A DNA stretch of 55,631 nt from Candidatus Nitrosopolaris wilkensis (GCA_003176995.1 QHBN01000145.1:1-55631); one strand, 5' to 3'; shown: positions 2,709-55,369, numbered from the stretch's first letter. Notes: generated from the letters alone by a model not told the origin. Translations and numbers: made by a program.

Positions 2709-3365
2709 ATGTTAGCCGAGGAGGAACTTATCCAAAGGATTTGTTCTGCTGGCCAGGCCGGTGTAAGAAAAACAGATTTACGCAAAGAATTTCCGCAGCC
2801 CGAAATCGATACTATCTTGGAGAAATTGACAAACGATGGTCAGCTCTTCATTGACAAAAAGGGTGCTGCATATTATTGTTGGCTTAAGGAGGGCTATCTA
2901 CAACATTTGCTAAATTCAGACCCCAGGTTCAGATTGACGCATGAGGCAATATATTCTTTGGAACAATCTATCCACAAAAATACGGACCGACTAGCAATCA
3001 CCTTGGATGCAATCGGTGCACGGAGTTCACCATCCGGCGATCTAACTGCTATAAACGACCAACACTCTTCTGAAGCGGCTTTCGGAAAACCGACATTCGA
3101 ATCCCAGATGACTAGAGTGGGACTCGATTTGTTTAAAAATAACTTCGATAACTCGATCGCCAATTTCTCAAGCTCGATAGGCTGGGTTGAACTAGGTAAA
3201 ATCAGAAATGATTTATGTAAAAAACATCATCTGGCTGACGAGGAATTTTATGATTTGGTGGCTCAATTGATAGCAAAGTATCCTGACAAATATGAGTTGT
3301 CTTCAGGCGGTTACGAGGGGTTGACGGTCCGTGGATTATTGCATGGATTTGTGAGGTGCATATGA
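2709..3365 (+). CDS. Unknown protein with an N-terminal winged-helix-like domain (first gene of a four-gene cassette)
   Basis: 218 residues, function not recognised. Residues ~1-70 read like a winged-helix DNA-binding domain of the archaeal B-block/TFIIE type: a helical LIQRIC...GVRKTDLRKEF segment, then a recognition-helix-like PEIDTILEKLTNDGQLF and a beta-wing DKKGAAYYCW. The middle (~90-150) is polar and low in conserved features. A C-terminal helical part (~155-218) includes GWVELGKIRNDL and ends with GLTVRGLLHGFVRCI, possibly a second winged helix. It overlaps the following ATPase gene by 10 bases, so the two are almost certainly co-translated and may form a complex. Start: ATG at 2709; no in-frame alternative is better. 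A role in recruiting the ATPase to DNA is inference from the domain pair. Confidence 0.6.
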   Translation: MLAEEELIQRICSAGQAGVRKTDLRKEFPQPEIDTILEKLTNDGQLFIDKKGAAYYCWLKEGYLQHLLNSDPRFRLTHEAIYSLEQSIHKNTDRLAITLDAIGARSSPSGDLTAINDQHSSEAAFGKPTFESQMTRVGLDLFKNNFDNSIANFSSSIGWVELGKIRNDLCKKHHLADEEFYDLVAQLIAKYPDKYELSSGGYEGLTVRGLLHGFVRCI

Positions 3366-5044
3366 TGTACCCCTACAAGCTGATACAGAATCCATATCCA
3401 AGTAATCCTACACCAACAGTAGAAGATACTCAGATTCTTGGCGGCAACAGGCATAAGGAAGGAAAGTCTGCTGTGCTATCTTGCATAGATGACTTATTTT
3501 CGAAAATAAAGGGAGGTGCGACAGAAAAGGATTTCCGCTTAATTACCGTTATTCAAGATGTAGGTTCAGGTAAGACACACCTTGCCTTTCACATTAGAGG
3601 TTTGCAACAACTATTAGGCAGCGCTGTAATCTCCTATTCAGATCTCGCACAGATATCACCACGATCTATGCACAGTATTTGTGGTGCTCTATTAAGAGGC
3701 TTTAATGACGAATATCTGAACGATCTCAGAAAGAAAGTTATCCATTATTTAAAAGACAAAGCGGATCGAAATATAAAGAACGCCAGAAAAATCTTCGGTT
3801 ATGGGTTCTTCGATTCGCTTATGGGCAAGAAGCTCGAGGACAAGGTAGAAAAATTTTTACAGAATGATGGCTATGTCTTAGACTTTGATGCTGTCGACAA
3901 AGTGTTAACTGAAGAATTTTCTACAGCCGAAGTATCCGTACTGAAGTTAATCATCGAAGGTAAATTTAGGACAGTGGTCAACCATGAAAAGACGTTGGAG
4001 GAGATAATCGAAAACCTATCCGCATTAGCGAGGATGAATCTCAAGTTTTTAAAAAAATTAACGGTGTTAGAAATAGATGAATTTGACGCAGATAAGGAGT
4101 CTATGGCTTTTGTCAAGGCTATTGTAAATGCACACTTGCCTTCAACAGTCCTTTTGCTGATCTTGACTCCATCTTCGTACGAACAAATACGAATCGCCAA
4201 CAGTTCCGTATTTGATAGGCTCGAAAAAGCGAATTACAAAATCGACCTTGCCGGGTCAAATACCTTTGAAGAAATACTAGATATCATACTTGAATATATT
4301 AGATACTATGATAAAGGAAAGAATTTTACATCACAGGAAGAAAAAGACCTGGCTGCGAGGATAAAAGTAATTTATGATGAATTTCCAGATTTCAGAAATG
4401 TCCGGTCAATGATAAATATTTTGTATCACTCAACAGAAAACGCCGAAGCCAGGGATGCATCTGCGATCGATGAACACGCTCTCGATGAGACTATCAAGAA
4501 AAATTACCCGGGTTTGAGAATAAGAGGTAGCATCATGTCAGTTCCTGTATCTGATTTCATTAAAATCCAAAAGAATTGTGATGACAAGCAGACTATGGAG
4601 TCTGACCTACGCGCTGCGATAAGAAACCTTGTTAACCACGCCCACAATATGGGGACTGTATCTGCACTTGAAGACTCACAAAATACGAGTGGCATTGATG
4701 TAATTTATAACGATGCCTGTGGAATGAAGGTCGCTGTTACTGTCATTTTAAATAAAGATAGCGCCAAAAATTTTGAACGAGTTTCTAATTCTGCCCGATC
4801 GACTTTAGCGGATAAGGTTGTAATACTGACTGATTCCAGTACTGCATTAGGAACAGGGTCGGCGACGAGGGCTGCGGCAGTAGTAGCGGCGACAACTGCA
4901 AAGGGAGGAGAGACAGTTGTAAATGTCGATCGATCCAAAATGATTGATTTGCTTTATTTTAGCAGCAAGTACAAAAACGATGAAATAAAGGGAGATGATC
5001 TAGAACGCGCATTAACGCTCGCAAAATCAATAAAACTTTGTTAA
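3356..5044 (+). CDS. AAA-type/Orc-like ATPase of unknown function, with C-terminal extension
   Basis: 562 residues. Walker A is DVGSGKTH at ~69-76, Walker B is LEIDEFD at ~240-246, followed by a sensor-like LLLILTPSS and an FDRL arginine segment; this order resembles the Orc1/Cdc6 and STAND side of the AAA+ ATPases. The N-terminus (YKLIQNPYPSNPTPT, then LGGNRHKEGK) precedes the P-loop. Residues ~385-562 form a separate domain with alternating hydrophobic strands (GIDVIYND...VAVTVILNKD), which could be a Rossmann-like or nuclease-like fold, but no catalytic set can be assigned. A start at M3 or M4 (3362, 3365) is possible. The gene overlaps the winged-helix gene and is followed at 55 bases by a zinc-finger gene, so it is probably the motor of a small nucleic-acid-related complex. 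Replication, repair or defence cannot be told apart from sequence alone. Confidence 0.65.
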   Translation: MHMMYPYKLIQNPYPSNPTPTVEDTQILGGNRHKEGKSAVLSCIDDLFSKIKGGATEKDFRLITVIQDVGSGKTHLAFHIRGLQQLLGSAVISYSDLAQISPRSMHSICGALLRGFNDEYLNDLRKKVIHYLKDKADRNIKNARKIFGYGFFDSLMGKKLEDKVEKFLQNDGYVLDFDAVDKVLTEEFSTAEVSVLKLIIEGKFRTVVNHEKTLEEIIENLSALARMNLKFLKKLTVLEIDEFDADKESMAFVKAIVNAHLPSTVLLLILTPSSYEQIRIANSSVFDRLEKANYKIDLAGSNTFEEILDIILEYIRYYDKGKNFTSQEEKDLAARIKVIYDEFPDFRNVRSMINILYHSTENAEARDASAIDEHALDETIKKNYPGLRIRGSIMSVPVSDFIKIQKNCDDKQTMESDLRAAIRNLVNHAHNMGTVSALEDSQNTSGIDVIYNDACGMKVAVTVILNKDSAKNFERVSNSARSTLADKVVILTDSSTALGTGSATRAAAVVAATTAKGGETVVNVDRSKMIDLLYFSSKYKNDEIKGDDLERALTLAKSIKLC

Positions 5045-5099
5045 TTGTAGAGCAAGGTTTGTACAAACTCTTTTAAGAGGGTGCTGCAATTGTTGCGCT

Positions 5100-5372
5100 G
5101 TGGATGGCGACAAAGAATTGGATGATGAACTCACGGATTTAAATCATACAAGATCGCTTAGAGAGGTTCTTCGATGTAATATCTGCGGCGGAGATGCCGA
5201 CTTTATAGTTCAGCTAGAATTAGTAAAAGAAAGAAGCAACTATAATGTTATGGAATCTGTGAATCAAATGCCATTCTATCTTTGTAAATCGCATGAATAT
5301 CTCTACAAGAAGATGCAATACAACATAGAACTAAAAGACTATTTCTCCGAAACAATTAGCGGATACCGATAA
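5100..5372 (+). CDS. Small zinc-finger protein of unknown function (third gene of cassette)
   Basis: 90 residues starting at GTG 5100. CNICGG at ~27-32 and a later CKSH at ~63-66 give a C-x2-C...C-x2-H set typical of a treble-clef-like zinc site. The rest is acidic and helical. It sits 55 bases after the ATPase and 34 bases before the next gene on the same strand. I do not recognise the family; an adaptor or nucleic-acid-binding role is inference from the zinc site and neighbours. Confidence 0.5.
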   Translation: MDGDKELDDELTDLNHTRSLREVLRCNICGGDADFIVQLELVKERSNYNVMESVNQMPFYLCKSHEYLYKKMQYNIELKDYFSETISGYR

Positions 5373-5406
5373 GGACAATATTATAGTTATTGGGCAGCAG
5401 ACGTCG

Positions 5407-5886
5407 TTGGCCACAGGAAGTAGATCTTTTAGATCACTTGAGGACTTCATCTCAAATTTACATAAATGTGGAGCGGCCTTGACTGACTTCAAAGGCGCCA
5501 ACATTCCTACCATATACATTGACGCTAGAAGATATGACGAAATTATGAAAAGGATCTATAGCCAAAAAGTAGCAGTTGATACTTTGTTGAACATATTTCA
5601 TGACGGCCGTCATGTGTTTGTTGATGTCCAAATGAAATTTCTCAATACAGACTTGCAAGAAAATTATCTTTTATATGCCAACAACATGATCGAGTTCTTT
5701 GAATCATTGTCGGAAACAGGTTTGATATCACTTGCCCCTGATCCCTCCTCTATAAGTAACTCAAGTAACTTATTCATTATCCAGCTTCCAAAAAAAGAGC
5801 TGGCCGAAAAAGCACTCCAAATAATTCGGAAAAATGCAAGCAACAAAGTAGGAATACATGAGGACAGTTATGATAAGAGACTGTAA
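5407..5886 (+). CDS. Unknown protein (fourth gene of cassette)
   Basis: 159 residues from a TTG start at 5407; the first in-frame ATG is well inside, within the segment DEIMKRIY. It has no membrane segment and no catalytic motif I can name. The pattern of a strand (TIYIDARRYDEIM), helices and a second strand (HVFVDVQMKF) suggests a compact alpha/beta fold. A polar Ser/Asn-rich linker lies at ~110-125. It closes the same-strand run that begins at 2709. The function is unknown. Confidence 0.5.
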   Translation: MATGSRSFRSLEDFISNLHKCGAALTDFKGANIPTIYIDARRYDEIMKRIYSQKVAVDTLLNIFHDGRHVFVDVQMKFLNTDLQENYLLYANNMIEFFESLSETGLISLAPDPSSISNSSNLFIIQLPKKELAEKALQIIRKNASNKVGIHEDSYDKRL

Positions 5887-6985: not shown

Positions 6986-7213
6986 CTAGACGGGAGTGGA
7001 ATCCACCAACCTTGCCTCTATCCTACGTTTATCTTTGGTCATCCACGAGACTCGCACAAGCCCATATATTTCTAGGTCAAGCAACGTCTTGTCTAACTCG
7101 GCCTCAGTTATGGGTACTCCATCCTTGGTCAAAGCATTCATTAATTCGGAATCAGTCATATTACCGGCATGCTTTATTTTCTCGTAAATTAGATTACGCA
7201 AAGGGTAATTCAT
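6986..7213 (-). CDS. Small winged-helix DNA-binding-like protein
   Basis: 75 residues. The helix-turn-helix pattern is clear: LRNLIYEKIKHAG, then MTDSELMNALTKDGVPITEAELDKTLLDLEIYG, then a beta-wing VRVSWMTKDKRRIEARL. It resembles the isolated winged-helix proteins common in archaea. It converges with ctaB (17 bases between stops). The target is unknown. Confidence 0.65.
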   Translation of the reverse strand: MNYPLRNLIYEKIKHAGNMTDSELMNALTKDGVPITEAELDKTLLDLEIYGLVRVSWMTKDKRRIEARLVDSTPV

Positions 7214-7342
7214 AATGCGGCCTCTAAAATTTGGGAGGGTTAGCAGTATATCAATGTATATCCAAACAAACTGTACGAACTGTTCATGTTATGGGGCTAC
7301 CGGGCAATTAAATTGGGATCGAATATACTTTTATAAAAATCC

Positions 7343-9550
7343 CTATCCGTAGAACACTTTGTCTATTTGTTTAGGCATCGAATACGTAATGCTCTTCTTC
7401 ATTGACTCATACCAGTCTTCAACATCTTTAGTTATCGACGGCTTTACCAGATGCAAAGCGCTCCCAAAGTCAGTGTTAGTGATGATATCTGATTTGCTTC
7501 TCATTGCATTCACCGCAGCTTCTCTGCAGAGGGCACCGAGATCAGCACCGCTGAAGCCTTTTGTAGATTGAGATATATTCTCCATGCTCACGTCATTTGC
7601 AAGTGGCATTGAAGACGTCAAAATTTTTATTATTTCGAGCCGTGCCTTCTCATCCGGTGCTCCAATGAACAATATCAAGTCTAATCTTCCAGGTCTCAGA
7701 AGTGACGTGTCTATTAGATCAGGCCTATTTGTAATTCCGATTACTATAACGCCTGCACTCCCTGAATCGTCCATCTCTGTCAGAAGCTGGGACAATACCC
7801 TCTCATTACCTGATAAATCATCCCCACCACGGGGTCTAGCGAGCGAATCCAGCTCATCAAAAACTACTACACAAGGCGAAGAAGCTTTTGCTTTCCTAAA
7901 TATTTCCCGGACTGCTTTTTCTGATTCTCCAACCCACTTAGACAATACTTCAGGACCCCTCACCATTATTATGTTCGCGCTGCTCTCGGTTGCCAAGGCT
8001 CTTGCAATTAAGCTCTTACCGCAGCCAGGAGCGCCAAATAATAAGGCTCCTCTAGGGGGTTTGACGCCCATCTTGATGAAATTTTCCGGGACTTTAATGG
8101 CTGTAATGAGGTTATAATATAAGGTACGTTTGGCGTCATATAGTCCGCCTACGTCCTCCCACCTGACTGCTGCAGCTTCTACGTAAAATTCTCTCATTGC
8201 TGTTGGAATGATTTCTTTCATTCCGTCTTTGAAATCTTTATTCCTGATATCCATTATCTCCAACGTGCTTGGCGAGACCTTCTCTTCTTCTAATTCTATG
8301 TCCGGTAGGTAGCGCCGCAACGCTTTCATGGCAGCCTCTCTGCAGAGGGCTTTTATATCTGCCCCAGTATACCCGTGAAGCTCCTTTGCCAAAGCCGGAA
8401 GGTCGATATCTTGGGAAAGTGGCATTCCTCTTGTATGAATTTGAAGTATTTCTAGTCTGCCTTCCACATTGGGCACCCCTACTTCTATCTCTCTATCAAA
8501 TCTACCTGGACGCCTCAAAGCAGGATCTATACTTTCGGGTCTATTTGTAGCACCTAGTACTATTACATTACCACGTTCAGACATACCATCCATTAAGGAA
8601 AGCAATTGTGCCACAACTCTTTTCTCGACGTCGCCAATTGCCTCCTCCCTCTTTGGAGCGATGGCGTCGATTTCATCGATAAAAACAATACTTGGTGACG
8701 CATCTCTTGCTTCTTTAAAAATGTCTCGTAGCCTAGCTTCCGTTTCGCCGTAGTACTTGTTTACAATTTCGGGGCCATTGATAATAAAGAAATTTGCTTC
8801 GGATTCTGAAGCCAGTGCCTTAGCAATCAAAGTTTTCCCACAGCCAGGAGAACCGTACATCAGTATTCCGTTATGAGGTTCAATGCCTAGTCTTGCAAAT
8901 ATCTCTGGTTGTCGCAAAGGTAGTTCGACAATTTCTCGGAGACGCTTGATTTGTTCCGTTAGACCGCCAACCTCTTCATATGTCACTCGCGGCTTCTTAT
9001 CAAGAGAACTCTCTGCCATTATATTCAGCTTCGTGGATCTTTCAATCTTGACGGTAGCTCTAGGTGTTATTTTTTCTATGCGAAAATCCATAGGATTCCC
9101 CAGAATTACTACAGATATCTCATCTCCCTCAGTTACAGGGAACCCTCTGAGTCTATTCTTTACAAATTCACAGAATTCCCTATCAATAGAAACAGTACTG
9201 CTCCCGAGAGGCATCAGACCTACCGCTTTTGCAGATTTTGATTTTGCCTTGTGTACTGACAATAGATCATTCAAAGCTACTCCTGCATTCTTTCTCGTTT
9301 GACCGTCGATCCTGATAATATCAATCTCGCTCTTCTCCTGATCGCTCGGCCAGGCCGTCACAGCGGTCTTGCGTTTGCCTACTAACTCTATGACTTCGCC
9401 GGGTTCAATGCCCATTCTGCGCATCGAATCCGAATCAATACGCGCCCTACGTTTTCCTAAGTCCCGGTGTTTAGCTTCTAAGACACGAAGGTGTAATTTT
9501 GGGGAAGATTCGTCACTTGCATCGTTACTTCTTCCACGAGATTTTTTCAA
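7343..9550 (-). CDS. cdc48: Cdc48/VCP-type AAA+ ATPase
   Basis: 735-residue hexameric unfoldase. Domains in order: N-domain (about 18-185, double-psi barrel plus 4-stranded barrel), D1 with Walker A GSPGCGKT at ~233 and Walker B FIDEID, D2 with Walker A GAPGCGKS near 511 and Walker B VFDELD. Both rings keep the second-region-of-homology motifs ([19 protein letters not shown] and [19 protein letters not shown]). It pulls proteins apart with ATP, for refolding or for degradation. The last three residues are F-Y-G, matching the hydrophobic-Tyr-any (HbYX) tail by which ATPases dock on the 20S proteasome. The start ATG at 9550 lies 21 bases after the aEF-1beta stop, so the gene probably shares a transcript with the translation genes upstream. 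Confidence 0.95.
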
Positions 9551-9571
9551 ATTTCAGCTTTGAGCTCCTTC

Positions 9572-9862
9572 TCAAAACTTGGACTTCATTTTTACAGATT
9601 GTCTGCTTATGTTTATCACGTCGATCTCGCCAACACCCTCTGTATTTTTTATGAGCTCTTCTAGTTTATCCATCTGACCTGCTTGGTCTTCCATAAGAAA
9701 ATCTCCGACAATTGCCTCCAAGCCAAATGCAATGGGTTCTTTTGCATGGGCCATCATTTGGATACCATCGGGAATTACAGTCTTTAGGCGCTGAACCACA
9801 TCCTCTAGATCAGAATCAGCTTCTGCCGGGAGGATCCTGATTCTTGCAACAAGACGGGTCAT
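9572..9862 (-). CDS. ef1B: Translation elongation factor aEF-1beta
   Basis: Nucleotide exchange factor that recharges aEF-1alpha with GTP. The protein is 96 residues from the ATG at 9862, beginning MTRLVARIRILPAEAD, with the usual alpha/beta sandwich of about 90 residues (AFGLEAIVGDFLMED, TEGVGEIDVINISRQ). The reading frame stays open 11 codons further upstream to 9895, but that part overlaps the zinc-ribbon gene and is not typical of the family; the ATG at 9862 sits two bases after that gene's stop. The zinc-ribbon/aEF-1beta pairing is a recurrent archaeal arrangement. Confidence 0.93.
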   Translation of the reverse strand: MTRLVARIRILPAEADSDLEDVVQRLKTVIPDGIQMMAHAKEPIAFGLEAIVGDFLMEDQAGQMDKLEELIKNTEGVGEIDVINISRQSVKMKSKF

Positions 9863-9864
9863 TT

Positions 9865-10044
9865 CTACGGACCCTCGAATCCACACCCTACGCATTTATA
9901 ATTTCTGGCAAATTCTCGGCAACTTTCACATCTCCAAATTAGAACATATCCACAATTAGGACAGTAGTATTTGACGCACTCATCGTTAGGCATTATAGGT
10001 CTACTACAAGAAGTACAAACAGGAAGCTGTAACGGCTGGGACAC
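9865..10044 (-). CDS. Small zinc-ribbon protein of the archaeal HVO_2753-like family
   Basis: 59 residues. Four CxxC-type knuckles are visible: CTSC (10-13), CPNC (28-31), CESC (39-42) and CVGC (51-54), enough for two zinc sites, and the protein ends FEGP, the characteristic end of this family of small archaeal two-zinc proteins encoded next to aEF-1beta. They are thought to bind RNA or act around translation; the exact function is not settled. The start is GTG at 10044. A TATA-like box lies 26-32 bases upstream, which points to a leaderless transcript starting at or near the GTG. The stop is two bases before the aEF-1beta ATG. Confidence 0.85.
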   Translation of the reverse strand: MSQPLQLPVCTSCSRPIMPNDECVKYYCPNCGYVLIWRCESCREFARNYKCVGCGFEGP

Positions 10045-10069
10045 GTAACCTCGAAGGTTGATAACCGAA

Positions 10070-10076
10070 TTTATAT
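10070..10076 (-). promoter_or_regulatory. TATA box for the zinc-ribbon/aEF-1beta/cdc48 run
   Basis: On the minus strand the sequence reads ATATAAA, 26-32 bases before the GTG at 10044. That is the expected TATA-to-start distance for archaeal TBP/TFB promoters, so the mRNA would begin at the start codon. It lies inside the end of the reductase gene's 3' flank, so the translation genes have their own promoter. Confidence 0.55.
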
Positions 10077-10081
10077 CTTCC

Positions 10082-11269
10082 TTAGCTTAATAACCGCCTA
10101 ATTTCGTTACCTAGTATTGCTTTCATTATCTTTACTCCATGCCTTGATCCAAATATTTTTGTCAAAGCAGCAGTGTGAAAATCGAATTCCCCTACTCTAG
10201 ATATTTCTTGAAGCTTCGATTCAGAAACACTAAGAAATAATTCGTCTAACGTCCTATTATCAACTCGTTCCAATATTCGTCTTGCGAGAAGCATCTTGTC
10301 AAATTCGCCTCCGAAAATAGCGAGCCAGCTTCTCTGGTAATCCCATAGCTTATCAATGTCGTTTTCATCATATGCATTCGATATCGCCCTACCGGCAAGA
10401 ATTCCTCCCATCCCGCATGTATAAATCCCACCCGCCGTTGTCGGTTTTGTTTGGCCCGCTGCGTCCCCAATAATTATTGTTCGTCGAGCACTAATAAAAT
10501 TCTCAATCGGACCAGAGACCCAAATCGGTGCATATACCTTACGAATAACTGAATACTTTTGCGCTTTACTATCCATATACGATTTCAAGGCAACTGCCGC
10601 ATTGATCCCTTTTCCGGCTACTCCTACTTTTCCAGTACCATCTCCAGTCGGAATAATCCATCCGAAAAAACCCGGATACTTATGATTATCAAATTGAACC
10701 TCGACAGTCTCTCTCTCTATCCACGAAGCATATACTTCATATTGTGCGGATTGAAGTATACCCTCACGTTTGTTCTGAATTATTGATGCCACCCCTCTTG
10801 CATCAATAAAGAATTTACAAGTAAAATCACCTTCAGAGGTTTTTATAGTTTGACTAAAATCTGCCTGATTATGATCTAGAGTCGGTTTATTTTCAGAAAC
10901 AGAACGAACGGAACACCTTGTCCTTATTTCTGCACCCAGTCTTTGTGCTTGAAGAGCTGCCTGTTTATCCAAGAGTCGCCGGTCGAGGGCAATCACTTTT
11001 TGGGCTTCGGTATTAAGAATGAAAGAATGCGAAGGAGAAAAAATTTTTGCCTCTTTGATTCTACTTTCAATCGCATTGGCTGCAGGTACCATACCAAGAT
11101 TCTTTAGGCCGTCGATACTAACTAAGCCGCCGCAATGTTGCGGTGTTCCGATTTCAGGATCTTCTTCAAAGACAGCAACAGATCTACCTCCTGGGGCAGC
11201 AATTTCGCGTGCTGCTAATAGGCCGGATATGCTACCCCCGGCGATTATTACATCAAAATAATCTGACAT
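10082..11269 (-). CDS. Geranylgeranyl reductase family FAD-dependent oxidoreductase
   Basis: 395 residues. An N-terminal FAD-binding Rossmann motif (VIIAGGSISGLLAAREIA), followed by the family's acidic residue and EEDPEIGTPQHCGGLVS, and a second FAD motif GDAAGQTKPTTAGGIY at ~265-280. Archaeal members saturate the geranylgeranyl chains of membrane ether lipids; others act on related isoprenoids such as menaquinone side chains, so the exact substrate is not fixed. No membrane segments, as expected for these peripheral enzymes. It is divergent from pth2 with only 51 bases between starts. Confidence 0.85.
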   Translation of the reverse strand: MSDYFDVIIAGGSISGLLAAREIAAPGGRSVAVFEEDPEIGTPQHCGGLVSIDGLKNLGMVPAANAIESRIKEAKIFSPSHSFILNTEAQKVIALDRRLLDKQAALQAQRLGAEIRTRCSVRSVSENKPTLDHNQADFSQTIKTSEGDFTCKFFIDARGVASIIQNKREGILQSAQYEVYASWIERETVEVQFDNHKYPGFFGWIIPTGDGTGKVGVAGKGINAAVALKSYMDSKAQKYSVIRKVYAPIWVSGPIENFISARRTIIIGDAAGQTKPTTAGGIYTCGMGGILAGRAISNAYDENDIDKLWDYQRSWLAIFGGEFDKMLLARRILERVDNRTLDELFLSVSESKLQEISRVGEFDFHTAALTKIFGSRHGVKIMKAILGNEIRRLLS

Positions 11270-11320
11270 AATAACAGATAGGCAATCTATTTCTTGGTCT
11301 GTTAATTAAGGTATATACCT

Positions 11321-11674
11321 GTGATTTACAAACAGGTAATCGTCGTTAGGAGGGATCTTCGGATGGGTATTGGTAAGACGGCCGCGCAGGTAGCTCATGC
11401 GGCGGTCCTCGGAGCTGAAAGAACCAAGCAGTTTAATCCGGCCTGGTTTCAGAGGTGGTTCGAATCGGGTCAGGCAAAAGTCGTGGTAAAGGTGCAAACT
11501 GTTGAAGAGTTGACTTCATTGCGTAATGTTGCCGAGACTTTGTCTTTGATAGTAGTTCAAGTGGAAGACAGGGGTCTCACACAAATTCCTGCGGGAACCA
11601 CTACGTGTATAGGGATAGGACCAGCACCTACAGAGCTGATAGACAGGGTGACGAGCCGCTTAAAATTGCTTTAG
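11321..11674 (+). CDS. pth2: Peptidyl-tRNA hydrolase, archaeal/eukaryotic type (Pth2)
   Basis: Releases the peptide from stalled peptidyl-tRNA so that the tRNA can be reused. 117 residues, normal for the family. The N-terminal strand YKQVIVVRRDLRMGIGKTAAQVAHA carries the conserved K-x-A-x-Q-x-A-H-A segment, and the C-terminal motifs VEDRGLTQIPAGTTT and GIGPAP are intact. The start is GTG at 11321. TTAATTAAGG at about 11300-11309 could be the TATA region. Confidence 0.95.
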   Translation: MIYKQVIVVRRDLRMGIGKTAAQVAHAAVLGAERTKQFNPAWFQRWFESGQAKVVVKVQTVEELTSLRNVAETLSLIVVQVEDRGLTQIPAGTTTCIGIGPAPTELIDRVTSRLKLL

Positions 11675-11814
11675 CGCTTGACGCAATAAAGTGTGTAACA
11701 AGAATGTTTTTTAGGGTATTGCTGCGTCTAATAACTGAAAGTGTACAAACGTTCTAAACTTAATATATTGACGATTAGGGGTGTTCATCGGAAATATTTA
11801 GATATTGAGCAAAA

Positions 11815-13254
11815 ATGGTTCACGAAAATTGTGGAGTAGTAGGGGCATTCTCGCTGAACGGTTCTAACGTTATACCGTTCGTCATAGATTCTCTCCGTGC
11901 ACTTCAACACAGGGGCCAGGAGTCCTGGGGCCTCGCAGTTCCAAACAGGATGCCGCTAAAAAAACTAGGACTAGTCTCCGCGGCAGCGACAGAGTTTCAG
12001 ACATTAGTTAAGAGGTACAAGTCGCATGCGGCGATTGGGCATGTTCGTTATTCTACTTTTGGGAAGAGCACCCTACAAAATGCTCAACCCTTAAAGGTAA
12101 AAGATTTGTGTGTAGCGCACAATGGCACGATAGCGAATGTAGAGGAACTGTCATCCATGGTAGGTGGATGTACTTTCACTCCGCAAACTATGAGCGATAC
12201 CTTGGTCGCAGCGCAGCGTCTTGTTATGCATACAACTGAAAATGGCAACTTTACTGAGGCTGTCTCTACCTTAAGAGATGAGATGGTTGGCTCGTTCTGC
12301 TTTACCTTTTTGACTGATTCCGGATGTGTGTATGCAGCGCGGGATCCAAAAGGCTTCCGCCCACTTGTTATGGGATATCATAAAGAGACCAATACCTATG
12401 TTGTTGCGTCAGAGTCTTGTGCTTTCTCTGCGATCGGAGCACAACTTAAACGGGACGTCGAGCCTGGTGAAATTATGAAAATGAGCCTATCAGGGATTGA
12501 ATCTGAACAATTTTCTGTAGACATGCCACATTCTCATTGTGCATTTGAATACACATACTTCGCCCATCCTAGCAGCATTATGGAAGGTGTGAATGTATAT
12601 GCAGCAAGGAGAAGGATTGGGAAGTTCCTTGCTAAACAATTCCCTGTTCACGATGCTGATGTTGTTATCCCGGTGCCAGATTCCGCGAGACCAGCGGCAT
12701 TGGGATATGCACTTGAGATAGGCAAACCTTTCGAAGAGGGATTACTCAAAGATAGATACAGTAGAAGAGGTTCAATGCGGAGCTTCATAGAACCTCATCA
12801 AGAAAGTAGGATTGAGATTAATAAGGGTATTATTCCTATTCGCGAGGTGATTGATGGGAAAAACATTGTTGTTGTAGACGATAGCATTGTTAGGGGTAAC
12901 AGCTCGATGTCCATAATTCGTACATTACGCGCAGCTGGTGCTAAACGAATTAGCATGATAATAACATATCCTCCAATTAGCTATCCTTGCTATGCAGGCA
13001 TTGACTTTCCATCGCAAGAAGAACTTTTAGCGTTTAGACATGCAAGTAATGATCTGTCAGGTACCGGGGCAGGAGATAAGATATCAAAAATAATAGGGGC
13101 AGATTACGTAGCATATAACAGTACTACAAACTTAGCAAAGGCCATAGGCATTCCCAAGGAAGAGCTTTGTTTTACCTGCTCAACAGGAGATTATTCTGCT
13201 CTTGGGATAAAACCAATTTTCAAATCAAGAAAACAAATGAAAGGCGAGGATTAG
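11815..13254 (+). CDS. purF: Amidophosphoribosyltransferase
   Basis: First step of purine synthesis: PRPP plus glutamine gives 5-phosphoribosylamine. 479 residues. The N-terminal glutaminase domain begins MVHENCGVVGAF, so the nucleophilic Cys is residue 6 and a five-residue propeptide must be removed. The phosphoribosyltransferase domain has the PRPP loop VVVDDSIVRGNS near residue 360. Cysteines in HCAFEYTYFAHP, YPCYAGID and CFTCSTGDY match the four ligands of the [4Fe-4S] cluster found in the Bacillus-type enzyme. The gene has its own upstream region with a TATA-like AATATATTG about 50 bases before the start. Confidence 0.96.
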   Translation: MVHENCGVVGAFSLNGSNVIPFVIDSLRALQHRGQESWGLAVPNRMPLKKLGLVSAAATEFQTLVKRYKSHAAIGHVRYSTFGKSTLQNAQPLKVKDLCVAHNGTIANVEELSSMVGGCTFTPQTMSDTLVAAQRLVMHTTENGNFTEAVSTLRDEMVGSFCFTFLTDSGCVYAARDPKGFRPLVMGYHKETNTYVVASESCAFSAIGAQLKRDVEPGEIMKMSLSGIESEQFSVDMPHSHCAFEYTYFAHPSSIMEGVNVYAARRRIGKFLAKQFPVHDADVVIPVPDSARPAALGYALEIGKPFEEGLLKDRYSRRGSMRSFIEPHQESRIEINKGIIPIREVIDGKNIVVVDDSIVRGNSSMSIIRTLRAAGAKRISMIITYPPISYPCYAGIDFPSQEELLAFRHASNDLSGTGAGDKISKIIGADYVAYNSTTNLAKAIGIPKEELCFTCSTGDYSALGIKPIFKSRKQMKGED

Positions 13255-13629
13255 TTATCGACGACCTTTAGCGTTTAAGATTTCACTTCAAGACCTCGTA
13301 TACTGATTATTGTAATACCAACCGCCTTCTTCTGTACATGTTTTTTTGATCGACACTGTTCGACTCGGTGTTAGTAGAATAACAGATACAACTAGGCTTC
13401 ATCTATCTAGTTCTTAGCCTGAAAAACACGTGTTATCTACTCATAATGAAGTTAACCATCGCTACCGATCTGTGCGCTAGAATAATAACCGATTTAGGAT
13501 CTAAACCAGTTGTTACGGACTAAGTGTAAGCTGTAGTGTCGACCCATTCTATTTTGTATGAAACATATTAAGACAGATAATCCTTAGAAATCAACACTTA
13601 AAAATAGGATCACTGATTTCTTCGGTTAT
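13255..13629. other. Intergenic stretch without recognisable gene
   Basis: 375 bases, AT-rich, with no tRNA or plausible coding sequence. Its last part holds the promoter of the ribosomal protein pair: ACTTAAAAATAG at about 13600-13611 is placed about 20-30 bases before the L39e ATG. Confidence 0.4.
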
Positions 13630-13788
13630 ATGGCTGCCCGAAAAAAGACGGCCTTGAAAATGAGGCTAATGAAACGTACAATGCAAAACAAAGCGGTCCC
13701 TGCGTGGGTAATAATTAGAACACATCGCCACGTAAGGACTAATCCTAAACGTCGCATGTGGCGCAGAACTGATGTAAACGTCGGGTAG
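13630..13788 (+). CDS. rpl39e: 50S ribosomal protein L39e
   Basis: 52 residues, very basic, starting MAARKKTALKMRLMKR and ending RRMWRRTDVNVG. The conserved N-K-x-V-P-x-W segment (QNKAVPAWVI) and the RRxWRR-like end identify L39e, a small extended protein near the peptide exit tunnel of archaeal and eukaryotic large subunits. The stop is 14 bases before the L31e start, the usual archaeal pairing. Confidence 0.95.
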   Translation: MAARKKTALKMRLMKRTMQNKAVPAWVIIRTHRHVRTNPKRRMWRRTDVNVG

Positions 13789-13802
13789 CCTTTGAGAGGA
13801 GT

Positions 13803-14171
13803 TTGTTAGCGAAATTGTCTTCTGAAGAAAGTGTAACTCGTATCGAAACCGTAAACCTGGGAAAAGCATGGATAACCCCCCGTTATAGAAGGACAGATCG
13901 AGTTATAAACATGATTAGGGAATTTGCAAAAAAAAGTATGAAGAGCGATGAAGTGAAACTTGATCAAGATCTGAATCGGCAGATTTGGAAGAGAGGTAAA
14001 ACAAATCCTCCAAGAAAGGTTCGTCTTAAGCTGGTCAAAGATGAAGACGGGACAGTCGTGGTCTCTCTTTATGATGAGGCGACGAAGAATGAGCTAAATA
14101 AAATAGGACCGGAAGAAAAGAAATCACCTGAATTGACAACGAAAACAGAGGGACCTGAGGCTTCCAAATAA
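13803..14171 (+). CDS. rpl31e: 50S ribosomal protein L31e
   Basis: 122 residues. The L31e core is residues ~10-95 (VTRIETVNLGKAW, RRTDRVINMIREFAKK, DQDLNRQIWKRG, NPPRKVRLKL). A charged tail rich in Glu, Lys and Thr extends ~25 residues beyond the core. It starts at TTG 13803, directly after a strong Shine-Dalgarno-like GAGAGGA (13794-13800), which is only three bases from the start codon. Co-transcribed with rpl39e. Confidence 0.93.
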   Translation: MLAKLSSEESVTRIETVNLGKAWITPRYRRTDRVINMIREFAKKSMKSDEVKLDQDLNRQIWKRGKTNPPRKVRLKLVKDEDGTVVVSLYDEATKNELNKIGPEEKKSPELTTKTEGPEASK

Positions 14172-14295
14172 AATAGAATACTCTGAATCACTCCCTCTCA
14201 ATAATCAACTTATTATTCGCGCAAGCTATTGGATCCTGCGGTCAAATCACACACTAAAAAACCAATCGTGATTTCTCTTGGATCGAAATTATTTC

Positions 14296-15258
14296 TTACT
14301 CGAGATTCGTAATTGCCATTTCTATATCAGGCGAGCAATCCATATCATCCCAGTCTAAAACATTTCTATTCGGGATGATTCGGGAAAGAGGATCGTAAGC
14401 GTCAAATCTTGTTGTTTCGTCAAAGGATGCTAGAAGATGAACCGTCGTTTTGTCGGAGTTTGATTCTGCAATTGCAACTCCTGCATTTCCGTCATCCTTA
14501 AAGATTTCTTGTAACGTATTAAAAAGCGAATTTAAAAGGCCGAGAGGAACGTTCTTCCCACCCATGACATATAACATGGCACTCTTGACAGAGCCGGCAT
14601 ATGCGTTCTGGTATAGCATAGCAACAGAATCCTTGGCAGAAAATTCTGCTCCGCCAATATTATTGCTGGTACATAGTAAACTCAAGTCGCTATAGGTGTA
14701 AGTGCCGCTGCAAATTAGACCAATAGTCTGAGAAAGAGCTCTATTTGTGATTTGATAACATTCTTCGGCTGATAATTCTGGATTATTTTCTAGAAAAGCC
14801 TCGTTGTCAATTACTACAGTCGCGTCAGAGGCTTCTCGTACTCTTTTAAGAGAGATCGCTGCTTGAAAGACGCGATCTTTTTCAAACTTGAAAGGCATTA
14901 TGACGAATGACACTACAGTTTTTGAATTAGACTCTTCTTTTGCCAACCTACAAACGACCGGAGCAATCGCACTACCCCCCCTTCCAGCCAAGTTTGCTAC
15001 CACGACCACTGTGTTAAAACCACGTAACACCGATCTTATTCTAACTGCTGAATCTTGAGCATAGAACCTTAACTTATAACTAGACGGATTTACCCAGGAT
15101 TTTGGGTTAATCAGAATAGAGCTAAAACTCCCGACTAGGTCCTTTGTGTCATTACTTATCAAAACACATTCAGAATTGATTGCTTTGCAGGCCTCTCTGG
15201 CTATCCTGCTTCCTGCGCCGCCAATACCTATTACTAGAATAGGTTTTTCAATGGCCAA
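14296..15258 (-). CDS. Divergent FtsZ/tubulin-superfamily protein with degenerate GTPase motifs
   Basis: 320 residues. The N-terminus (PILVIGIGGAGSRIA, residues ~7-20) is the first glycine loop of FtsZ, and the overall order of strands and loops follows FtsZ. The tubulin signature GGGTG(S/T)G is replaced by AGRGGSA at ~91-97, followed by the still recognisable IAPVVCRLAKE (FtsZ has APVIA). The T7 catalytic-loop region reads TYTYSDLSLL rather than the usual N-x-D-x-x-D. It should therefore not hydrolyse GTP in the usual way. Thaumarchaea are known to have divergent FtsZ while dividing with Cdv/ESCRT proteins, so this is unlikely to be the main division GTPase. Its role is unknown. Confidence 0.75.
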   Translation of the reverse strand: MAIEKPILVIGIGGAGSRIAREACKAINSECVLISNDTKDLVGSFSSILINPKSWVNPSSYKLRFYAQDSAVRIRSVLRGFNTVVVVANLAGRGGSAIAPVVCRLAKEESNSKTVVSFVIMPFKFEKDRVFQAAISLKRVREASDATVVIDNEAFLENNPELSAEECYQITNRALSQTIGLICSGTYTYSDLSLLCTSNNIGGAEFSAKDSVAMLYQNAYAGSVKSAMLYVMGGKNVPLGLLNSLFNTLQEIFKDDGNAGVAIAESNSDKTTVHLLASFDETTRFDAYDPLSRIIPNRNVLDWDDMDCSPDIEMAITNLE

Positions 15259-15370
15259 GTTATCTTCCAGAACCCTTCCCCTTCATCCGGATAGCACAGA
15301 TATTAGTTAAGAGTTTTGGTGGTCTACATAATAACAACTATTTGAGCTATTGGCCTCTATTATTATCTAA

Positions 15371-16645
15371 TCAACCTATCAACATATGGCTAGAAAACTC
15401 TTGGATTTTTACACTTATTCTGTCGCCTAGTTGAATCTGACAGCCTGGTGAGCGGGGAACATGTATAGGCTTGTATGCATAGTTTCTCCCCCGTAGCCAC
15501 CTAATATCTGATTGATCAACAATTATTTCACCTTCCCACCCTTTCCATAATGCGTTACGTTTCAGAGCGATATTGTTAATCAGCAAATGCATCTGCTTAC
15601 TTCTGACTTTTATAATCTGGGAACTTAGCTTCTTAAACTTTGCAGCCGCAGTTCCTGGTCTCGCACTGTATTTAGAGATATTGACGACGTCGGGCTCGGT
15701 GGCTTTTATTATCTCAAGAGTTCTCTCGAAATCTTCCATAGTCTCAGAGGGGAAACCAACAATCACGTCAGTAGCGATGGTCACCTCCGGAATTCTGCTC
15801 CTAAATGTTTTGACTGCGTCAACGAATATGTTCGCGGTGTGACCTCTTTTCATTTTCCTAAGAATAGCGTTGCTACCGCTTTGGACTGGAATATGTAAAA
15901 ACTTGAAGATTCTGTCGCTTTCTACGAAGAGCTCTGCCAACCTCTCAGTCATGTTCGTAAGAAACATCGGATTCATCATCCCGATTCGAATTTTGTAGTC
16001 CCCCTTTATGCTAATACACGATTCAAGGAGCTCAATCAGATTTGATCCGATATCTCTTCCATAACAGCCGTTGTCGGTTGAAGTAAGCCAAATCTCTTTG
16101 CAACCGTCATTGACATCGTGTCGAAATTGCCGCAGTATGTCTCCTATGCGATAACTTCTTAATTGCCCTTTTGCGAGTTTCGTCTGGCAGAATGTACATC
16201 CACTCATGCATCCACTGGCTATTTCTATTATGCTGGTCACAGGATTAACTCGTACTCTAGGCAGGTTAACTTTGTTAGACACAGAATCCTCAAGAGCTAC
16301 TGCTCGTCGTCCAGAAATTGTGGATTTTACAACATCTATTGTGCGATTGATAGCGTGTGGTCCAAGCAGGGAAGCTGTAGGATACCTAGTTTCTAGAAGT
16401 TTCTTGTTTGCCTTGGGAAGGCAACCGGCTATTATCAAAGGTTTTCCTGTTTTCATTAATTGGTCTACTCTATGAAGCATCTTGTGTTCGGTTACGTCCT
16501 TTACAGAACATGTTACGATAATACTCAGAAAACTGTCCCTTTCGTTATTCCCTACCTGATAACCACTCTCCTTCAAGAGCCCGGTTATCATTTCGGAATC
16601 TCCGATGCTCGCTGTGCAGCCGTATGCTTCTACCCATATTTTCAT
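15371..16645 (-). CDS. Radical SAM tRNA methylthiotransferase, archaeal MtaB/CDKAL1 type
   Basis: Adds a methylthio group to t6A at position 37 of tRNAs reading ANN codons. The ATG at 16645 gives MKIWVEAYGCTASIGDSEM, the usual start of this family; the frame is open 42 codons upstream (16771) but that part is unlike the family. Three N-terminal cluster cysteines (YGC, VTC, AGC), the radical-SAM motif CMSGCTFC (C-x3-C-x2-C) and a C-terminal TRAM-like RNA-binding domain (from about LWKGWEGEIIVD on) are all present. Length from M43 is 424 residues, normal. A neighbouring transcript relation is not evident: 112 bases separate it from the FtsZ-like gene. Confidence 0.9.
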   Translation of the reverse strand: MKIWVEAYGCTASIGDSEMITGLLKESGYQVGNNERDSFLSIIVTCSVKDVTEHKMLHRVDQLMKTGKPLIIAGCLPKANKKLLETRYPTASLLGPHAINRTIDVVKSTISGRRAVALEDSVSNKVNLPRVRVNPVTSIIEIASGCMSGCTFCQTKLAKGQLRSYRIGDILRQFRHDVNDGCKEIWLTSTDNGCYGRDIGSNLIELLESCISIKGDYKIRIGMMNPMFLTNMTERLAELFVESDRIFKFLHIPVQSGSNAILRKMKRGHTANIFVDAVKTFRSRIPEVTIATDVIVGFPSETMEDFERTLEIIKATEPDVVNISKYSARPGTAAAKFKKLSSQIIKVRSKQMHLLINNIALKRNALWKGWEGEIIVDQSDIRWLRGRNYAYKPIHVPRSPGCQIQLGDRISVKIQEFSSHMLIG

Positions 16646-16851
16646 ATTCTTAGATCGATCACCCAACGTGTCTGACAAAGCTCGCCAGTTAGCGTCACGA
16701 GTAGTCGTGTTCGGGCGTTTGATCAAAGAAGGTATCTTTTCAATTAGACTTGGTTGTAAGGAACGAAACAATTCTATTGCTGTAGTCGAATAATATAATG
16801 TCTAGTATAAATCGTGTGGCGTTTTTGACGTCATCCGTTGTTCCAATCGGT

Positions 16852-18207
16852 TTAGGAGTCTTTCTCCGAAGATAGTATCCCAGAGTTCACCAATAATCGT
16901 GTAGCCTCGAGTAGATGAGTAATATCGCCCTCGGTGTGCACTGAGGATATTGCTCCCATTTTTAACGGCAGAAAAAAAATTTGATGCAACGTTATTAATC
17001 CCAGGTGGTACCTGTGGAGTAGTCCCAGATCAGACATGGCCACATCTGCGGCGTTACTTATACTTCTAACCTTGTTATTTAGAAAGTGAGTCAAAAATAG
17101 TGACCCTTCCCCGGTAACTTGAACGTCGATTTTGGCCTCTTTAAATATCTTAGCCAAACCAGCCCTAGCTTTTGCGCCAAGATCATTTATCTTCTGATAG
17201 ATCTCGTCCATATTTTTATTAAGATAATTGATGGTTGCCAATCCTGCTGCCATTGACATAGGATTACAAGAATATGTTCCTCCACCTATATTGCATCTAG
17301 CCTGATTCTCTTTGATTAAGACAGGGTCTGCTAGTGACATTACCTCCTTCTTCCCGCAAACAATTCCTATTGGCATTCCCCCGCCTACAATTTTGCCCAG
17401 TGTAAAAAGATCGGGTTTGAGATTGTATTTCTGTGAAGCTCCTCCAATGGATAATCTGAATCCGGTGACAATCTCATCCAGTATTAGAAGGATATCGTTT
17501 TTCTGTGCGAATTCTTGCAAACCCTTTATGTAACCAAGATCGGGCGTAATGCAACCTGCCCCTCCAAGTATGGGTTCCAGAATGATGCCTGCTAAATCGT
17601 CGATAGCGGATTCAAGAATCTTTATAGAAGAGTCGAGGTCGTTGAAAGGTAATGATTCGACAAATTGTTCCTCTTCCGCAACAAGACCCGCTCCCTCCTG
17701 TTTATTGAACGGATAGTTTACCGACTGCATAAGTGTAGTATTGAATCCATGCCAGCCGCCAATTATCTTTGCGATGACACGCTTATTGCTCTTTGCTCTT
17801 GCGAGACGCACAGCGTACATCGTTGCCTCAGAACCTGTGCTTGAAAAACGCAGATTCTCTGCACCGGGCATGAGTTTCTGAATTAACTCCCCTAACTCCA
17901 GGGAGATATGGTTTGCGGTCCCGTACAAAGTACCATTTCTAAGCTGTTGCGACAGTGCATTTACAACTGTACGAGGAGAGTGGCCTAGGATTAGCGACCA
18001 ATGTCCCATCCAATAGTCGGTGTATTCGTTGTCATCTACATCGCAGAGATTTTTGCCCTTAGCCCATTTTGAAAAGAATGGATACGGTTTGAAAAAGCGA
18101 ATGTTGTGGTTGATTCCACCTGCGAACACTTTGGTGGCTTTATGAAAGAGCCTTTTGGAGGTCTGAGTTTTATCTTCATAGGAAGCGCCAAGTTCGGAAT
18201 TTAACAT
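16852..18207 (-). CDS. Class III aminotransferase, glutamate-1-semialdehyde aminomutase-like
   Basis: 451 residues, PLP-dependent. The PLP lysine is in FTLGKIVGGGMPIG, with the upstream Asp in LLILDEIVTGFR and the phosphate-binding STGSEATMYAVRLAR, so catalysis by the fold is intact. The closest functional match I can see is HemL, which makes 5-aminolevulinate. However, the HemL hallmark GGVNSPVRAF is here GGINHNIRFF, and the protein is about 20 residues longer than usual HemL. It may be a paralogue with another substrate; no other heme or tetrapyrrole synthesis gene is next to it. It is divergent from the rRNA operon. Confidence 0.75.
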   Translation of the reverse strand: MLNSELGASYEDKTQTSKRLFHKATKVFAGGINHNIRFFKPYPFFSKWAKGKNLCDVDDNEYTDYWMGHWSLILGHSPRTVVNALSQQLRNGTLYGTANHISLELGELIQKLMPGAENLRFSSTGSEATMYAVRLARAKSNKRVIAKIIGGWHGFNTTLMQSVNYPFNKQEGAGLVAEEEQFVESLPFNDLDSSIKILESAIDDLAGIILEPILGGAGCITPDLGYIKGLQEFAQKNDILLILDEIVTGFRLSIGGASQKYNLKPDLFTLGKIVGGGMPIGIVCGKKEVMSLADPVLIKENQARCNIGGGTYSCNPMSMAAGLATINYLNKNMDEIYQKINDLGAKARAGLAKIFKEAKIDVQVTGEGSLFLTHFLNNKVRSISNAADVAMSDLGLLHRYHLGLITLHQIFFLPLKMGAISSVHTEGDITHLLEATRLLVNSGILSSEKDS

Positions 18208-18498
18208 AACTAAAAATGGAGGTTAAAATGAGCTATTATATTTTTGTGTGAGATTGAATGACAAATAGTCCGAGACAAGATTTATATTCTAATTTGTTGT
18301 CATAAATCTAGAACGTAACATTAAAGGCGGCGTCGGTGATGATCTTTGGTCATGGTGCCATTCTATGATTTACCGACCTCCAGTTGCGCTCACAATATGG
18401 GGATTCAATTGTATAAAAATTGTATCCGACATTGGTCACATGACCCGCACAATACTAAAAGTTGTCCGGCCGTACTCTTTAAGTTAACAAACATAATG
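18208..18498 (+). promoter_or_regulatory. Upstream region of the rRNA operon
   Basis: 290 bases without a gene. An AT-rich stretch at 18278-18309 contains TTTATATT and the 8-base inverted repeat AGATTTAT/ATAAATCT (18278-18285 and 18302-18309), plus nested GACAA/TTGTC. This is the likeliest place for the rRNA promoter, possibly shared with the divergent aminotransferase. Transcription start and regulator are not visible. Confidence 0.35.
18459..18471 (+). other. 16S rRNA processing stem, 5' strand
   Basis: AAGTTGTCCGGCC pairs with GGCCGGCAACTT at 19976-19987 on the other side of 16S: 12 base pairs with one bulged T. A long stem that loops out 16S is the standard precursor structure. I could not place the two bulges of a canonical bulge-helix-bulge in this stem. 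Confidence 0.65.
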
Positions 18499-55272: not shown

Positions 55273-55369
55273 GCCGGGGTTGCCTAGCCTGGTAGGGCGC
55301 AAGCCTGGAATCTCTACAGCAAGCTTGTGATCCGGAAGGGTCTCGAGGGTTCAAATCCCTCTCCCGGCG
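55273..55369 (+). tRNA. tRNA-Ser(GGA) with 11-base intron
   Basis: Acceptor GCCGGGG/TCCCGGC (last pair G-U), anticodon stem CAAGC/GCTTG, T arm GAGGG-TTCAAAT-CCCTC, and a long variable arm GATCC-GGAA-GGGTC make it a class II tRNA; the anticodon is GGA and the discriminator is G, both right for serine. The anticodon loop is interrupted by 11 bases, TCTCTACAGCA (55311-55321; 55310-55320 gives the same product), after position 37, the usual archaeal place. CTG/CAG can pair with GAA and CAA as three-base bulges, a relaxed bulge-helix-bulge. No CCA is encoded. TTAATATATT at 55238-55247 is a likely TATA box. Confidence 0.88.

Follow-up and report, generated by a model that had tools for sequence, protein, structure and literature searches.

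The window, a stretch of 55,631 nucleotides from Candidatus Nitrosopolaris wilkensis (GCA_003176995.1 QHBN01000145.1:1-55631), carries a winged-helix (WH) gene and an AAA+ ATPase gene followed by two smaller ORFs, with the following features:

2709-3365, + strand: WH gene (ORF call), 218 aa.
3123-3341, + strand: C-terminal wHTH of the WH protein, its most conserved part in the alignment.
3362-5044, + strand: AAA+ ATPase gene (ORF, homologue starts, AF2 pLDDT 85, PDB fold matches), 559-560 aa from ATG 3365/3362.
3557-3580, + strand: Walker A, DVGSGKTH.
4061-4087, + strand: Walker B, VLEIDEFDA region (D238, E239).
4217-4219, + strand: putative arginine finger R285, in FDRLEKANYKIDL.
4586-5041, + strand: C-terminal helix and PD-(D/E)xK-like alpha/beta domain with the catalytic pattern lost (DSSP, Mrr_cat, motif loss).
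5100-5372, + strand: accessory zinc-type protein gene, 90 aa, with invariant ligands; outside the core unit.
5407-5886, + strand: ORF4, 159 aa, a separate conserved gene, usually nearby; outside the core unit.

The four ORFs are as an earlier sequence-only reading had placed them, with 55 bases between the ATPase and zinc genes and 34 bases between the zinc gene and ORF4. That reading began the ATPase ORF (3356-5044) at a GTG, giving a 10-base overlap with the WH gene. The ATPase homologues begin at a conserved M-YPY in the alignment, which corresponds to ATG 3362 or 3365, and the GTG at 3356 lies upstream of this. The start is therefore better set at ATG 3362/3365, and the overlap becomes a coupled ATGA (4 bases) or a single base. 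Comparison with a 95%-identical relative gives dN/dS values of 0.17 for the WH gene, 0.14 for the ATPase, 0.11 for the zinc gene and 0.19 for ORF4, and these low values indicate that all four are under purifying selection; a zinc-gene value for L052 was left out because of a frame error. As single sequences, the four proteins stayed below the curated cut-offs of Pfam and NCBIfam, below cut-off in PADLOC, where matches were weak (E of at least 0.01), and below cut-off in the PDB, in which the WH and ATPase proteins have no sequence relative among solved structures. A glycosyltransferase-like gene upstream of the pair (210-2398) falls into two frames, 240-779 and 698-2383. It is a single frame in the 95%-identical relative (L051), pointing to a frameshift here or an assembly error. 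Elsewhere in the window, an ORF at 14296-15258 (- strand) looks tubulin/FtsZ-like, with GIGGAGSR at its start, and a 97-base tRNA at 55273-55369 (+ strand), perhaps intron-containing, was found by Rfam and missed by ARAGORN at default settings.

The conserved unit is two genes, WH and ATPase, and not the cassette of four that had been proposed. At 92 of 100 loci, a set in which some genomes are counted twice, the WH gene lies directly upstream of the ATPase, usually overlapping or abutting it; the exceptions are four contig edges and four loci without WH. The zinc gene occurs in 19 of 61 genomes, all of them Nitrososphaeraceae and only a subset of that family. Its C-x2-C...C-x2-H motif holds up, the ligands C26-x2-C29 ... 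C62-x2-H65 being invariant in 12 homologues. ORF4, a core gene in its own right, is retained where the pair has been lost: of 200 genomes sampled from the order, 83 have the ATPase and 147 have ORF4. Its hosts include 36 of 39 Nitrososphaeraceae (f1) and at least 110 genomes of the Nitrosopumilus-type family f9, about 80 of these without the ATPase. ORF4 is thus near-universal in these two families. It is absent among f2 and f13 genomes in the matches listed, and searches of Pfam and PDB gave no noteworthy match to it. The conserved linkage outside this genome extends to the WH and ATPase genes and leaves out the other two. With that linkage present elsewhere and no characterised system matched, the proposal that the locus holds something not recognisable as a known module stands.

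The ATPase is present in 37 of 37 Nitrososphaeraceae within a set of 61 genomes, and in 39 of 39 within a 200-genome sample of the order. This larger sample also has it in six f2 genomes (Nitrosocaldus-type), in seven f13 genomes and, for f9 (Nitrosopumilus, Nitrosotenuis and Nitrosotalea types), in 30 genomes out of at least 110. The ATPase gene tree mirrors taxonomy, the number of changes being the minimum possible, and the chromosomal position of the pair is fixed across the ammonia-oxidiser loci compared. Marine-type genomes keep the block F3, F7, F14, ORF4, F9 and an L10e-like gene, with WH-ATPase missing between F7 and F14/ORF4; this absence is a clean lineage loss. Most marine Nitrosopumilus are without the pair and yet replicate, so it is dispensable there. 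Three Nitrosopumilus-type genomes have the ATPase, which in the two that were read lies at another locus without WH, and a WH gene sought in those three and in five f13 genomes was not found.

Several loci depart from the usual arrangement. L128, L129, L202 and L203 are Nitrosopumilus-type loci with an ATPase and no WH gene, and in L202 and L203 the ATPase is away from the ancestral locus, which suggests relocation or transfer with loss of WH. L038 (G023:C24) has at 7191-9713 a second, orphan ATPase copy without a WH gene, followed by a PP2C-type phosphatase-like ORF. In L032 (G033), Cas1-like and DNA polymerase B-like ORFs (10427-18444; casposon-like by reading) come just after the ATPase, and ORF4 is about 16 kb from it instead of adjoining.

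The WH protein is modelled by AF2 at pLDDT 81 (about 85-95 in the wHTH segments) as an N-terminal wHTH (aa 3-59), a long helix (72-105), a disordered linker (about 107-135) and a C-terminal wHTH (139-211). In the N-terminal wHTH, the helix predicted to serve in recognition has no marked basic character. In an alignment of 55 homologues the C-terminal part carries an invariant GW...FY...YELSxGGxEG...RG...G..R, and the C-terminal wHTH is also the part that is recognisable in the Sulfolobaceae-like and Thermoproteales-like partners. The linker is expanded in Nitrosocaldus-type genomes, where the proteins reach 405-626 aa.

The ATPase is active-looking, as judged by its motifs, and is of the ORC/Cdc6-TnsC-BrxC type. 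Among 51 homologues from ammonia oxidisers, GSGKTH of Walker A, D and E of Walker B and the putative finger R285, whose role is assigned by position, are all invariant. The Walker motifs are retained across all groups compared, with GxGKT kept in every one. An R at the finger position is also seen in the alignment of distant and Sulfolobaceae-like members and is absent from the Thermoproteales-like ones. In the AF2 model a large helical insertion separates strand 2 of the AAA+ domain from Walker B; a C-terminal helical part follows, and beyond it a further alpha/beta domain. A PDB fold search with this model returned BrxC (3.5e-4), TnsC (4.9e-4), ORC (7e-4) and Cdc6 (1.2e-3), in this order, all of them DNA-associated AAA+ proteins. 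These matches, with the wHTH model, support the earlier view of a DNA-binding-type protein combined with an ORC-like ATPase. Pfam scans of individual members yielded signals that are generic or sub-threshold: AAA_22 is the commonest match, and there are weak BrxC_BrxD and nSTAND matches as well.

The ATPase does have the additional C-terminal domain that the sequence-only reading gave it, as is evident in both the homologue alignment and the model. The domain looks like an eroded PD-(D/E)xK-like fold. The order given by DSSP is helix-strand-strand-helix-strand-(helix)-strand-helix, which is compatible with Mrr-type PD-(D/E)xK domains, and Mrr_cat (Pfam) gives sub-threshold matches (0.002-0.003) in two distant relatives. 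The difference from Mrr-type domains is in the catalytic pattern: D...[D/N/S]xK survives only in several relatives outside the ammonia oxidisers, whose own branch lacks the xK lysine. The domain is probably not an active nuclease, given this motif loss. The Thermoproteales-like ATPase has neither the C-terminal domain nor the arginine finger.

By profile comparison, both WH and ATPase have adjacent, diverged homologues in Sulfolobaceae-like and Thermoproteales-like genomes. The ammonia-oxidiser profiles match those of f34 at 98.6% (E 5.8e-16) for WH and 97.9% (E 4.6e-13 over 395 columns) for the ATPase, and those of f36 at 97.1% and 96.5%, respectively. As a yardstick, the same ATPase profile reaches 0.2-45% probability against Orc1/Cdc6, and 78-91% against BrxD-like proteins over only 53-73 columns around the P-loop. 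The pair is found at 9 of 9 Sulfolobaceae-like (f34) loci. A crenarchaeal ATPase profile has strong matches in 14 f25 and 13 f36 genomes, and WH was recognised automatically beside the ATPase at 25 of these 27 Thermoproteales-like loci. We take f34 to be Sulfolobaceae, f25 Pyrobaculum/Thermoproteus and f36 Caldivirga/Vulcanisaeta. Adjacent WH-ATPase genes also occur in distant relatives from other Thermoproteota families (L206, L207, L208). Weak matches to the crenarchaeal profile (L313-L319, L322-L324) were discarded as ABC-type or other ATPases on reading.

The neighbours of the pair appear to be those of an ordinary chromosome. They are housekeeping genes in the window and at most loci read, where the names come from reading the sequences except for GINS, MCM, the TGT-like gene and BrxC_BrxD, which are Pfam-based. 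Which genes these are varies: a ctaB and a Cdc48-like gene are near the pair in the window and in Nitrosocosmicus, an endonuclease-III-like gene accompanies it in Pyrobaculum-like genomes, and L10e-like and tRNA-endonuclease-like genes lie beside it in Nitrosotalea. One crenarchaeal genus stands out (g68; G106, G144, G210, G284): in each of its four genomes the order is adk-WH-ATPase-GINS-MCM, on one strand and with short or overlapping junctions. PMC2643942 treats gins23-mcm as an accepted functional cluster in replication, and the passages covered of this study and of the 2012 CMG paper (PMC3307487) do not mention the WH-ATPase pair. The GINS-MCM neighbourhood comes from one genus and may represent a single event. 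Searches of virus, phage and plasmid sequences returned no homologues of the pair, and the suggestion that the genes might sit in defence islands is not borne out by these searches or by the neighbours. Taken together, the evidence suggests that the pair is an overlooked machine acting on the DNA of ordinary chromosomes, and not a defence system.

Our tentative reading is that the pair is a vertically inherited two-gene DNA machine, in which WH positions an ATP-driven oligomer, probably for replication or chromosome maintenance. With ATP, the ATPase would form a DNA-bound ring or filament. The WH protein may serve as a positioning adaptor that touches DNA, or a protein on it, through one wHTH and docks on the ATPase through the conserved C-terminal one, the flexible linker extending its range. 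ATP, on being bound and hydrolysed, could then switch the complex so that a client is loaded, placed or released. That client would most likely belong to the chromosome replication or maintenance apparatus, with the MCM-GINS helicase as the best candidate, and the eroded nuclease-like domain may act as a DNA or protein grip and not as a cutter. A narrower version makes the pair an ORC-like loader, regulator or restart factor for MCM-GINS, ancestral to much of Thermoproteota, lost in marine ammonia oxidisers and with the winged helices carried by a separate partner protein. Points that speak against the general reading include the genomes that retain the ATPase but have no WH, the missing finger and C-terminal domain of the Thermoproteales-like ATPase, and the lack of marked basic character in the N-terminal recognition helix. 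Because the GINS-MCM link is seen in one lineage and the marine genomes have lost the pair, we hold the general mechanism at somewhat less than even confidence and consider the MCM-GINS version improbable.

The pair could instead be a module against invaders. In such a guard, of BREX-related or STAND-like type, WH would detect foreign DNA and the ATPase would act as scaffold or trigger for an effector whose gene lies elsewhere; a version of it domesticated for host use is the alternative. The top fold match to BrxC, the weak BrxC_BrxD and nSTAND matches in members, the degenerate nuclease-like domain and the loss from streamlined marine genomes are consistent with this. So is a further related pair, a WH gene with a BrxC_BrxD-type ATPase (Pfam 6.6e-11), in a Vulcanisaeta-like genome (L242, G138:C1:177500-197000, at 8009-10535). 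A TGT-like gene (Pfam 2.3e-8) follows this further pair, an arrangement that recalls BREX-related or DNA-modification clusters, and TGT with an ORC/Cdc6 ATPase is part of a described BREX-related system (PMC12839542). The module is unlikely, however, given that PglZ is over the cut-off in 0 of 41 relatives, that no BrxC/BrxD family match exceeds it in the genome itself or in ammonia oxidisers among the matches listed, and that descent is vertical, with every sampled Nitrososphaeraceae genome carrying the ATPase among housekeeping neighbours and no viral, phage or plasmid homologues.

Regulation of transcription would put the WH protein first, as a tandem-wHTH factor whose binding is modulated by the ATPase in the manner of other AAA+ co-regulators. 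The WH model best fits winged-helix subunits of RNA polymerase III and TFIIIC and MarR-type regulators, and Pfam scans of member WH proteins match TFIIIC B-block, TFIIE-beta and Mnd1-type HTH. These signals are generic or sub-threshold, though, and wHTH folds are themselves generic; ATPases of the ORC/TnsC/BrxC type are DNA-loading or scaffold proteins and not typical co-regulators. No conserved candidate target gene lies beside the pair across the ammonia-oxidiser, Thermoproteales-like and Sulfolobaceae-like loci, and we regard this role as decidedly unlikely. A domesticated transposition regulator, that is, a TnsC/TniB-type ATPase and target adaptor retained without a transposase, would fit the second-best fold match, the AAA_22 signal and an N-terminal NPY/F..PTP..H.eA stretch reminiscent of ExeA/TniB-type proteins, but is scarcely credible, since the loci read showed no recognisable transposase or TniQ next to the pair, no mobile-element homologues were found, and the conserved position and vertical descent largely refute it.

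The literature searched, with incomplete coverage, contains no description of the WH-ATPase pair. It appears to be an uncharacterised two-gene DNA-ATPase module common to Sulfolobaceae-like model archaea and ammonia oxidisers. If the pair acts with MCM-GINS, as in the narrower version of our reading, it would be a second ORC-like player in archaeal replication. If not, it is still a new setting for a clade of ATPases in which replication initiators, transposition regulators and defence ATPases come together.

Each of the known systems nearest to the pair shares some of its features. TnsC/TniB is similar in fold (4.9e-4) and in the AAA_22 signal; the pair differs in having no recognised transposase or TniQ with it, and its ATPase in the large helical insertion and the additional domain at the C-terminus. 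A mobile-element origin was rejected, as there was no viral, phage or plasmid match. For BREX, the best fold match is to the N-terminal region of BrxC, and the profile match is partial, at the P-loop. BrxC and BrxD belong to the ORC/Cdc6 clade (PMC12839542), and ORC-type ATPases are linked to wHTH domains in BREX-type systems (PMC12839542, PMC13326643). In the pair, by contrast, the wHTH is on a separate protein, and the ATPase is much shorter than BrxC and a chromosomal core gene in Nitrososphaeraceae. Membership of BREX was rejected in view of the missing PglZ, the lack of any BREX gene alongside and the BrxC_BrxD scores, which are below cut-off (at best 0.007 in members and 0.0014 in a distant relative). 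Replacement of Orc1/Cdc6 was likewise rejected, since the same genome has a separate gene for a true Orc1/Cdc6 (G000:C196). The ATPase has no Cdc6_C match in Pfam, either as a single sequence or among members, and its profile similarity to Orc1/Cdc6 is poor. The likeness to Orc1/Cdc6 is in the AAA+ fold class, with Cdc6 and ORC among the best fold matches, in a core with Walker A/B and sensor/finger residues, and in the combination of an AAA+ ATPase with winged helices. The pair differs in having those winged helices on a separate protein and a nuclease-like domain at the C-terminus of the ATPase.
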